Both the position numbers and the translations under genes were made by a program. The notes beneath the pieces are model-generated. The model did no database searches. It was not told where the DNA came from and saw only the letters and a program-made list of their open reading frames with translations. A stretch of DNA of 35,173 bases from Candidatus Parakkermansia intestinigallinarum (GTDB lineage Bacteria; Verrucomicrobiota; Verrucomicrobiia; Verrucomicrobiales; Akkermansiaceae): the NCBI GenBank assembly GCA_019114365.1, contig DXFQ01000058.1, positions 1-35,173 on the forward strand. The letters are read 5' to 3'. Positions 2,041 through 6,755 of this stretch are shown here, piece after piece. Every line of letters begins with the position of its first letter. Position 1 is the first letter of the stretch.

Positions 2041-2231
2041 TTCCGGGGTGCGAGGGTGTGCGACGGGGTTGAAGGCCCGGGCGCGTGCCCGGTGCGGAAG
2101 ACGGGCAGGGGGGCGTTCGCTGAGCTTGAACAGGGTGGAGCGCCGGGCGGCCGGCTCGAGATTCGCGGGGCGGGCGTAGGGGGCGTGGGGCGGTTGGCCT
2201 GGGACGGAGTGCCGTTGCTGATCGGATGCCG

Positions 2232-2267
2232 AAAAAAACGCCGCACGGCCGGAAGCCGTGCGGCGTT
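2232..2267 (-). terminator. Rho-independent terminator of the M16 peptidase gene (minus strand)
   Basis: Plus strand gaaaaaaacgccgcacggccggaagccgtgcggcgtt; read on the minus strand this is a GC stem followed by a T7 tract. Confidence 0.88.
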
Positions 2268-2303
2268 GATGAGAGTCGGGCAAGCGGCTGCCGCCGCTGC
2301 GCT

Positions 2304-5300
2304 TTACTTGATGGTCACCGTCAGCGTTTCACCCTTCTTCATGTCCAGCTCGGGGAAGAGGATGAAGTCGTTGGTGAAGAAGGCGCCGGGGGCATCGCAG
2401 CCCGAGGCTCCCCGGCCGGTCTCAGCCGTCGGGAACCAGACGGCGACGCGCCCCTTGCGGTTGCTGTTGGCGGTGATGGTGAAGGTCTTGGCGTCCTGCC
2501 AGCTCACCGTGTAGTTGGAGCTGTGGTGCTCTTCGTTGAGCGTGGCGCTCCAGGCAGGATCGCCGTAGAAGGCCACCACGTCGCGGTCGTGCACGAGGCC
2601 GACGCGGTCTTTCGCGTTCTCTTGATTGAGATCCACGCCGACCGCAGCGATGTTGCGGTAGATGCGCCCGTCGATCTGCGGCTCGTTGAAGCGAGCCTTG
2701 AGCAGCCTCGGATCAATGTCCGCAGCTTCCTTGAGGATGAACTGATTGTTCAGGAACCACGCTTCGGCCAGCGTCGTGCCCGCGCTGTTGTCGAAGAACA
2801 TCGACAGCGTCCCCCAGCCGCCCTTGCCGTACCAGGAGGGAACCGTGTAGCCCACAAGCTGATTGCAGGTGTAGGCGGAGAGGGCGGTGACGGCCATGCT
2901 CTGCTTGGTATTCATCGCATCGCCGAAGAGGCAGTTGCCGGCGGCAATCCACACGCGGGTTTCGCCGTCCGGCTTGATTTCGGGACACTTGAACTGCTTG
3001 GCCACGCGGGCAAGAGCCTTGGTTTGCTTCTGCGTGATGGCCGGGGCAATGCCTTGGCCGACGATGCCGCGCATGTTCGGCAGGCTGGCTTCGTAGTAGC
3101 GGTTGTTTGCCGGGAAGATGAGCCCTTTGCTGTAGGGCATTTCCAAATTCGCCTGCGTTGCGTGGCTCGAGGAGACGACGAGCTGCGGCTTGCCCGTTGC
3201 CAGTTCGTGCGCGAAAAGGCCCTGCATGCCTTCGCGCTTGATGCGGCGGCCTTCTTCCGTGCTGTCGTTGTAGACGGTTTCGGTGGGTTTCACGTTGCCC
3301 GTTTGCTCCAGCACGGGGCTGTCGGGGCCCCAGTCCGTCAGGCAGTAGCTGCGGTCGAAGCGCTCGTGGCTCACGTTGGTGCTGCCGAGAACTCGTTTGA
3401 TGACGAGCGGTTGGCGGGCTTTGGCGATGCGCATGGCGTCCTTGGCGCTGTAGCCGGTGACGATGCCCCAGATGCAGTCGCCGTAGGGGTCGTCATCGAC
3501 GCGGCGCGCGGCGCGGTGCAGGTTGTTGACCAGCTCGCGACCGACTTCCATCGGGCGGGCAACGCAGGCCGCATAGCGGGCTTGCGTGTCGCGCAGCGCC
3601 TTGGCAATGGCGTCTTCGCTCAGCTCGTCCACCACGACGACCTTGCCCTTCCGGCCGTACTTGTCGGCCAGCGTTTGAGCCACCTTGAGCCACGATTTCT
3701 TGGAGGCGGCGTCTTTGCTGATGATGACCGTATAGGGGGAATACTTCTCGGCATCGCTCACGCTCAGCACGCGTACATCGTAGCGGAGAGCCACCTGCGG
3801 CGCGGCCGCGGGCACCGCAGTTTCGGGCACCGCAGTCTCGGGCTCGCCCGCCTTCACGGCGTTGCCTTGGCCCTCGTCGGTCTTTTCATCGTAGTCGTCG
3901 GGCACGGTAAAGATGTGAGTGGCTTTCGAGGCGTCGCCGAAGACTTCGCGCGCCAGCTGCCGGATTTCTTCCAGCGTGATGGAGCGCACATCCTCGCGCA
4001 GACCGCGCAGCAGGGCCAGCTGTTCCGGGTCGCTCTGGAGTTGGGCGAGATTGTTCATCCAGAAGGCAGGCTGAGAGAAGGCCTTGTCGATGCGGGACAG
4101 ATAGGGCTTGATGGCTCGCTCGAAGTCCTCTTGTGAGATGTTGCCCTTGCCGAGGTCCTGCATGATGAGATCCAGCGCCGTGCTGACTTTGACGCGGTTG
4201 CCTTTCACGCCTTCGCTCGTCACCATCACGAAGGCGGCGTCGTTGAAGTCGCTGCTCGTTTCAACGCTGACGGAGGGGCTGTAGCTTTCATTGAGCACCG
4301 CGCGGATGCCGTCAAAGACGCGTTCGCGTGCGATGGAGACGAGGATGGCAAGGCGGCGGTTGCGCTTGCGATCCATGCCGTTGCCCGCGGGGAAGATCTG
4401 CGTCACGATCGTCTTGTCTATGTCGGTGTTGTAGCGGATGAAGCTGCGTTCACCCCAAGGGCGGAAGTTCACGCGGCGCTGCTCTTCCGTCAGTTTCGTG
4501 AATTCCTTGTTGCGCTCGGGCATGGCGCCGAAGGTGCGCTCAATCACCGGGATGACCTCTTGGACGTCGAAGTCGCCGACGATTGTCACCTCCATCGCTC
4601 CCTTCTGCAGGAGGGGCGTCATGAGCTCGCGCACCTTCTGCGTATTCACGCCGTCGAACTGCTCGCGGGTCGGGAAGTTGAAGCGCGGATCGTCGCCGAA
4701 GAGCAGGCGTGTTACGTTGAACATGAAGGCGCCGTCGGGCGTTGTCTCAAACTGCGTGTAGACGGCATCGAGCTGGCGGCGCAGCAGCATCTCGGCCTCG
4801 GGGCGGAAGCCCGGGTGCAGCACGGCCGCTGCCAACAGCTTGCACTGAAGCTCGAAATCCTTGGGGTTGCAGTTGCCCGAGAAGGCGAAGCGATCCTGAC
4901 CCATGCTAAACGACATGCCTACCTTGTGTCCGGCGAGAATGCGGCGCAGATCATCCGTCGAGTGCGCTTCGAGGCCGCCGGCGGACATCACCGCCTCCGT
5001 CATTTGGCTGAGGCCGGGAATGGCCGGCAGATTCATCTGCCCGCCGTCGACGGCGACGCAGACTTGGATGTTGCCCTTGCGCGTGGAAAGCGGCTTGAGG
5101 TTGACGCGCACGCCGTTGGAGAGCGTGAGGGTTGTCGTATCGAGATCGGCCAGATGCTGTTGCTCAACGACTGTGCCGGGCGTGCCCGTCTGATCGTAGG
5201 CGAAGCTCAGCTCCTTCTGCTCCTCGGGGGGGGTGACGCGCACGGCTTTGGCTTCATCGTACACGCGGCGCAGATTCTGCTCGGTCGCATCGTCGGCCAG

Positions 5301-6755
5301 CGCTCCCATGAGCGTCAGCTTCACGCGGTCCGAGCAGTAGGCTTGAGCCAAGGCCTTGCGGCAGAGGTCGGGGTCGGCCGCCACGCGTGCAAGGCCGGCC
5401 TTGATGCTGCGGAGGTCTTCGGACGGGGGGGTGAAGGCTTGCCGGTCGGTGAGGGCCGAGATGATTTCTCCGGCCAGGCTGTCGCATGTCACGGTCTCCC
5501 AGCTGTCCTGAGCGCTTTGGGCTGCCGTCAGCAGCGATGAGGCCACCATCTCCAGCTCCTGCTCCGAGAAGCCGTATTCGCAGGCGCGGCGGAGTTCGGC
5601 CTCGGCCGCTGCGAGTGCCTCCTTCCACTTCTCGGGCTTGGCCTGCACGGCGAGGCCGAACACGCGAGCGGAGCGGAAGATTTCGTCATCGCTCACGCCG
5701 GCTCCCTCAAAGGGGCTCTCCGCCTGCTTCGCGAGGAGGTTGAAGCGAATGTTGAGCATGCTGCATGCCAGCTGCAGGGGCAAATCCTCGATGCGCTGCT
5801 CGAGCGTGTCGGGGCGCTGTTCCCAAGGATTCACCACGGAGAGCATGACGGTCGTCTTGGCGCTTTCGGGGTTCGGAATCACCTTTTCATCGGCGCCGAT
5901 ATTCGCCGGGGTGCCGATGGCGGGGCGAGCCGGGTTGGGGCTCTTCTCCATGCTTGCGAAGTGTTTTTCAATCCACTCCCGGGCTTTGTCGGTATCAAAA
6001 TCGCCCGTCACCACCACCGTCATGCGCTCGGGCACGTAGTTGGCGTGATAATAGGCGCGGATGGTCTCGTAGGGGCAGTTGCGAATCACCTCTTCGAGGC
6101 CGATGGGCATGTAGTCCGGCACGCGCGTGCCGTTGCAGAGCTGGCGAATGAAGGCCATGCTGGCGCGGTAGCCCTCCGAATCGCGGCTCTTGAGTTCGCT
6201 GATGACAATGCCGCGCTCGTGATCAATCGCCTCATCGCTCAGCTCGGCGCCGTCGGCAAAGTCGCGCAGCGCCGTGAAGGCGAAGTCGACCGTCTCATCC
6301 TTGAGGTTCGGCAGGTCGAACATGAAGACCGTTTGCAGCAGCCCCGTATAGGCATTCGCATCGCCGCCGAAGCCGAGGCCGAGCTGTTGCATGGCGGGGA
6401 TGAGCTCGCCGCGCTTGAAATGGCGGCTGCCGTTGAACACCATGTGTTCGAGGAAGTGCGAGATGCCCTTCGTCTCGGGGCTCTCGTTGAGCGAACCCGT
6501 ATCGACGAAAAGCCGGATGCTTGCGCGCCCCTTCGGCTCCGAGGTCGGGCGGATGATGTAGGAGAGCCCATTGTCGAGCTTCCCGAAGACCATCTGCGGG
6601 TCGTTTGCCAGCGGGCGCGTCAGATCCTCATCCGGTGCAGCCTCCGGCCGATTTGCGGGGGGTGCGGGCTGCGGAGCGTTTGCGGGAGCCTGGCTGTATG
6701 CCGCGGGGGCAGAGAGAGCCAAGGCCAGCAACATCATGGTGTATTTCGTGTTCAT
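2304..6755 (-). CDS. Secreted M16-family (pitrilysin/insulinase) metallopeptidase with two M16 modules and a C-terminal C25/clan CD-like domain
   Basis: ORF 2304..6929; likely start MNTKYTMMLLALALSAPAAYSQA (signal peptide) at 6755. Zn motif HxxEH in 'GISHFLEHMVFNGS'; second M16-like half; PETAVPETAVPAAAP linker; C-terminal domain with 'LVVSSSHATQ', 'VWIAAGNCLFGD' and 'VVAFYGDPAW'. Confidence 0.88.
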   Translation of the reverse strand: MNTKYTMMLLALALSAPAAYSQAPANAPQPAPPANRPEAAPDEDLTRPLANDPQMVFGKLDNGLSYIIRPTSEPKGRASIRLFVDTGSLNESPETKGISHFLEHMVFNGSRHFKRGELIPAMQQLGLGFGGDANAYTGLLQTVFMFDLPNLKDETVDFAFTALRDFADGAELSDEAIDHERGIVISELKSRDSEGYRASMAFIRQLCNGTRVPDYMPIGLEEVIRNCPYETIRAYYHANYVPERMTVVVTGDFDTDKAREWIEKHFASMEKSPNPARPAIGTPANIGADEKVIPNPESAKTTVMLSVVNPWEQRPDTLEQRIEDLPLQLACSMLNIRFNLLAKQAESPFEGAGVSDDEIFRSARVFGLAVQAKPEKWKEALAAAEAELRRACEYGFSEQELEMVASSLLTAAQSAQDSWETVTCDSLAGEIISALTDRQAFTPPSEDLRSIKAGLARVAADPDLCRKALAQAYCSDRVKLTLMGALADDATEQNLRRVYDEAKAVRVTPPEEQKELSFAYDQTGTPGTVVEQQHLADLDTTTLTLSNGVRVNLKPLSTRKGNIQVCVAVDGGQMNLPAIPGLSQMTEAVMSAGGLEAHSTDDLRRILAGHKVGMSFSMGQDRFAFSGNCNPKDFELQCKLLAAAVLHPGFRPEAEMLLRRQLDAVYTQFETTPDGAFMFNVTRLLFGDDPRFNFPTREQFDGVNTQKVRELMTPLLQKGAMEVTIVGDFDVQEVIPVIERTFGAMPERNKEFTKLTEEQRRVNFRPWGERSFIRYNTDIDKTIVTQIFPAGNGMDRKRNRRLAILVSIARERVFDGIRAVLNESYSPSVSVETSSDFNDAAFVMVTSEGVKGNRVKVSTALDLIMQDLGKGNISQEDFERAIKPYLSRIDKAFSQPAFWMNNLAQLQSDPEQLALLRGLREDVRSITLEEIRQLAREVFGDASKATHIFTVPDDYDEKTDEGQGNAVKAGEPETAVPETAVPAAAPQVALRYDVRVLSVSDAEKYSPYTVIISKDAASKKSWLKVAQTLADKYGRKGKVVVVDELSEDAIAKALRDTQARYAACVARPMEVGRELVNNLHRAARRVDDDPYGDCIWGIVTGYSAKDAMRIAKARQPLVIKRVLGSTNVSHERFDRSYCLTDWGPDSPVLEQTGNVKPTETVYNDSTEEGRRIKREGMQGLFAHELATGKPQLVVSSSHATQANLEMPYSKGLIFPANNRYYEASLPNMRGIVGQGIAPAITQKQTKALARVAKQFKCPEIKPDGETRVWIAAGNCLFGDAMNTKQSMAVTALSAYTCNQLVGYTVPSWYGKGGWGTLSMFFDNSAGTTLAEAWFLNNQFILKEAADIDPRLLKARFNEPQIDGRIYRNIAAVGVDLNQENAKDRVGLVHDRDVVAFYGDPAWSATLNEEHHSSNYTVSWQDAKTFTITANSNRKGRVAVWFPTAETGRGASGCDAPGAFFTNDFILFPELDMKKGETLTVTIK

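Follow-up and report, generated by a model that had tools for sequence, protein, structure and literature searches.

M16 clamshell proteases degrade peptides, and gingipain-type enzymes cleave proteins. The gingipains RgpA/B and Kgp stand with the type IX secretion sortase PorU in peptidase family C25, one of the accepted families of clan CD, where the catalytic His is usually followed by Gly. Akkermansia lives on host mucus and is a major human gut commensal. In literature searched for Akkermansia with M16, insulinase, C25 or gingipain, no description was found of a protein fusing an M16 protease to a gingipain-type domain, nor of any gingipain-type protease in the genus. We analysed a 35,173-nt stretch of DNA (the window) from a relative of these bacteria. 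It encodes a protein which is probably an exported two-protease chain, made of an M16 protease and a member of a clan CD family nearest to C25 that is unnamed in Pfam and NCBIfam.

Gene organization and the M16 part

The gene was complete and occupied positions 2304-6755 of the window on the reverse strand, encoding 1483 aa plus a stop. The frame stayed open upstream of 6755 as far as 6929; the signal peptide MNTKYTMMLLALALSAPAAYSQ, predicted by reading the sequence, began at the ATG at 6755 and covered about residues 1-22 (6690-6755). The reading frame, the motifs and the same architecture across Akkermansia relatives pointed to a secreted M16 protein with a clan CD-like cysteine-peptidase domain. 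Chance joining of the frames of two genes was rejected because the fusion was kept in most Akkermansia loci. The source genome assembly measured 2.13 Mb in 174 contigs, and a functional lead was sought among the neighbouring genes of the locus, where none was found. Several open frames were present on the opposite strand, including one of 636 aa at 2226-4136 (forward strand) antisense to the C-terminal domain (CTD), which is likely a by-product of codon composition.

Pfam and PDB matches delimited an M16 part of two halves at about residues 46-962 (3870-6620). Membership of M16 was established in the Pfam scan by PF00675 (3.9e-23, 82.4 bits against a cut-off of 22.3) and by PF05193, which matched two stretches (2.4e-35, 122.5 bits against a cut-off of 23); the PDB sequence matches were the M16 proteins 9ldy and PqqL (6ofs). 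The zinc motif HFLEH was found at residues 100-104 (6444-6458), and the third ligand, Glu180, stood 76 residues past His104. Judged by its sequence, this N-terminal portion is a typical zinc-dependent M16 clamshell enzyme whose active site is intact. The same genome also carried a distant M16 paralogue (G000:C76:3460-5358, 24-30% identity).

A Pro/Ala/Glu-rich linker, PETAVPETAVPAAAPQ, followed at residues 972-987 (3795-3842) and included PETAVPETAV at residues 972-981 (3842-3813). The linker PETAVPETAVPAAAP stood between the M16 part and a CTD of about 480 aa, and the confidence of the AlphaFold2 model dropped just past it. The CTD, to which AlphaFold2 and Foldseek assigned a predicted gingipain fold, spanned residues 1004-1483 (2307-3746). 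The putative catalytic His1198 (SSSHATQ, codon 3162-3164) lay in LVVSSSHATQ at residues 1192-1201, and the putative nucleophile Cys1275 (AGNCLFGD, codon 2931-2933) lay in VWIAAGNCLFGD at residues 1268-1279; both were assigned by conservation, and they directly follow predicted strands 206-209 and 281-285 of the CTD model. VVAFYGDPAW (residues 1393-1402, 2550-2579) corresponded to the GDP motif at which the C25 domain terminates, and a beta-rich C-terminal part came after GDPAW. The original prediction had placed the reading frame and both codons at these positions and the linker at about 3795-3850, and had named VVAFYGDPAW after the Cys motif.

Family membership of the C-terminal domain

The original prediction had called the domain C25-like and proposed a comparison with Peptidase_C25 (PF01364). 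At the Pfam cut-off, PF01364 matched neither the window protein nor the CTD alone, nor any of 22 family members scanned singly (0/22), and the window genome held no match to it. No consistent Pfam match was obtained for the CTD or any of the 22 relatives, the CTD matched nothing in NCBIfam, and a PDB sequence search of the CTD returned no match, even with a profile. Matches to DUF7432 and DUF2399 were weak, single and inconsistent and were treated as chance. The possibility, raised with the prediction, that the CTD was a known non-peptidase extension of M16 proteins was set aside, given that no Pfam family matched it.

For profile comparison, a C25 alignment was built from the PF01364 matches in the phylum, and the resulting profile retrieved RgpA/B, Kgp and PorU (6za2) from the PDB. 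The CTD aligned with this profile end to end, with the His residues paired, the Cys residues paired and the GDP motifs meeting at the close of the alignment; the score was 26.5, at an hhalign probability of just 2.8%. None of 200 column-shuffled controls reached 26.5 (mean 15.8, maximum 24.0). The CTD scored 21.5 against the C11 profile (shuffled maximum 19.8) and 19.8 against the C14 profile (shuffled maximum 22.9), both below C25, so neither clostripain-type C11 nor caspase-type C14 was retained as its nearest kin. A C11 peptidase gene was observed about 1 kb before a CTD-family gene in another genome (G189:C40:98150-101519).

C25 and C11, both accepted families of clan CD, scored 27.9 against each other. 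By this measure the distance from the CTD to C25 is close to that separating two such families, so the CTD reads as a separate family of the clan, with C25 the nearest. A conserved His-then-Cys dyad in register with C25 was present. The GHG that surrounds the catalytic His in C25 was absent; SHAT or GHAT stood there in most members, giving His-Ala, and HG occurred after all in a handful of members, L029, L133 and L140 among them. The C25 label held for the predicted gingipain fold and the register of the dyad, but was too narrow for a domain that lacks the PF01364 match and reads as a family apart.

Predicted structure

The AlphaFold2 model of the window CTD, built with 50 homologues, was confident (pLDDT 94.3, pTM 0.93). 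When it was searched with Foldseek against 350,542 PDB chains, two matches fell below 0.001, and both were the catalytic plus Ig-like domains of gingipain K (E 2.1e-7 for 4rbm and 5.8e-7, probability 1.00). A second model was made for a stand-alone Butyricimonas relative that shares about 30% identity with the window CTD, starting from a separate first sequence and a separate alignment (pLDDT 91.6). Its one match below 0.001 was gingipain RgpB (E 2.9e-8, probability 1.00). Gingipains were thus the sole significant matches of both models, in agreement with the original prediction of an M16 protease carrying a caspase/gingipain-type C-terminal domain and with the fold check proposed for it. The TM-scores were modest (0.35-0.44), in the range that remote relatives carrying insertions would give; the rmsd was large, and identity to gingipains was about 10%.

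Distribution and gene architectures

The CTD was present in 23 of the 24 sampled genomes of the genus. In the remaining one, an Akkermansia-genus genome that is 99% complete (G128), both the M16 module and the CTD were missing, and a distant M16 paralogue alone was found; this joint absence fits a shared role of the two parts, but tells nothing if a single event removed the fused gene. The CTD family was confirmed at no fewer than 392 places, in Verrucomicrobiota, Planctomycetota, Bacteroidota and Omnitrophota. Among 80 loci compared, fusion to M16 occurred in Akkermansia-type loci alone; in 0 of 34 non-Akkermansia loci did an M16 share the frame or lie in the flanking sequence retrieved.

Within Akkermansia, the two parts were encoded by separate genes at several loci. 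In L074/L106, L099 and L105 the CTD gene directly followed the M16 gene and carried its own apparent signal peptide; in L113 the two genes, with apparent signal peptides, lay on different contigs. The splits in L072, L075 and L097 look like assembly frameshifts and were not counted as true separate genes. At least 3-4 changes between the fused and the separate state were required on the tree. Such repeated joining or splitting of two exported parts suggests that the M16 part and the CTD share a compartment and probably cooperate.

Outside Akkermansia the CTD usually made up an exported protein of about 500 aa by itself. It was fused to a transglutaminase-like domain (PF01841) in five loci (L185, L068, L188, L193 and L130), and in L132:1168-4287 the CTD gene started 3 bases past a transglutaminase-like gene. 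Single fusions to a GH127 glycoside hydrolase (L189:828-4670) and to an SHD1 domain (L136:5833-7881) were also found. That an unrecognised clan CD family serves as a plug-in partner, of M16 in Akkermansia and of transglutaminase-like enzymes elsewhere, and here forms a secreted Zn/Cys two-protease machine, is in our judgement evenly poised.

Putative catalytic residues and proposed function

Alignments of the CTD drew on several phyla and on as many as 50 homologues. The His1198 position was invariant in alignments A1, A2 and A4, and the Cys1275 position (GNC) was invariant in A1 and A4 and at least 90% conserved in A2, where G-D-P was also invariant. The dyad was kept in virtually every relative across the four phyla. 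Since both residues fall in the most conserved alignment columns among such homologues, the His and Cys motifs are not chance occurrences. Most likely, the CTD cleaves peptide bonds through the His1198/Cys1275 dyad. The cysteine domain, joined to the M16 part by a linker that would be flexible, may nick larger or folded proteins beyond the inner membrane; the M16 chamber would then degrade the resulting peptides, and such two-step degradation could serve nutrition or envelope turnover.

PorU, retrieved here by the C25 profile, raises another role for a gingipain fold, that of a transpeptidase or sortase trimming or anchoring exported proteins. A CTD family that is exported, often stand-alone and spread across Gram-negative phyla would suit this role; however, no type IX-like sorting domain was noticed, and fusions to a degradative M16, to transglutaminase-like domains or to GH127 fit hydrolysis better, so that we regard a sortase-like CTD as unlikely.

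The original prediction had also allowed that the domain might be degenerate. In the window protein the dyad is intact, and it is near-universal in the family, so this description fits one Akkermansia subclade only (L112/L020, L021, L022 and L192). There the Cys is lost and GNCLFGD is replaced by GPGERGD or similar; L021 and L192 have lost the His as well. A conserved WYGxxGWG stretch has decayed in the same subclade, and joint loss of this stretch and the Cys is expected if both serve one active site. The CTDs of this subclade look like pseudoenzymes (apparent pseudoproteases), as far as can be read from their residues. They nevertheless remain fused, and the M16 HLLEH is retained where checked, as would be expected if the CTD played a non-catalytic part as scaffold, substrate binder or regulator of M16. 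Elsewhere, in contrast, relatives from different phyla retain both dyad residues, and most of these proteins lack an M16 partner, which makes such a non-catalytic role improbable.

A cysteine hydrolase of gingipain fold acting on substrates other than proteins could be reconciled with the low identity to gingipains and the one GH127 fusion, yet every significant structural match is a peptidase, and the dyad occupies the peptidase position; we consider this very unlikely. That the gingipain similarity is an artefact and the CTD an unrelated alpha/beta fold, as the low TM-scores and hhalign probability might suggest, is extremely improbable, since two separate models matched gingipains alone among all chains searched and the profile alignment independently set both catalytic residues in register.

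Relevance to Akkermansia

Mucus or host proteins are candidate substrates of a conserved exported protein with two different predicted active sites. The family of its CTD, which has no name, counts hundreds of members in other phyla. In G119, a genome of the same genus, the fused gene lay at 674-679 kb. Interpolation from M60 landmarks, whose locus tags we presume to be correct, put it near Amuc_0578, and a rough gene call counted 43 genes to the landmark that we take to be Amuc_0627. The count was compatible with Amuc_0576 and not exact, so the assignment is approximate; by position, the fused gene is likely Amuc_0576. Outer-membrane proteomics found the peptidase Amuc_0576 of A. muciniphila to be more abundant on mucin (PMC4960237). 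If the two are the same gene, a higher abundance of the fused protein on mucin has already been reported (PMC4960237).

Comparison with known proteases

The window protein shares with PqqL and 9ldy-type M16 proteins the two-half M16 structure and the HxxEH motif with downstream Glu, which form its N-terminal part. Those proteins stop after the M16 halves, whereas the window protein adds about 480 residues. C11 and C14 peptidases have the same class of His-Cys dyad as the CTD, with profile scores near the top of the shuffled controls. With PorU, the CTD shares the expected superfamily fold and export; PorU is the sortase of a type IX system, whereas nothing here points to a sorting system or to a cargo domain. 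The gingipains Kgp and RgpB share with it the predicted fold, including the catalytic and the following beta-rich domain, the order strand-His, strand-Cys and GDP, and secretion. Unlike them, the CTD has no PF01364 match, is only about 10% identical to them, and bears SHAT in place of GHG and GNCLxG around the Cys; the window protein has no visible gingipain-type prodomain, and its CTD is instead tethered to an M16 protease.
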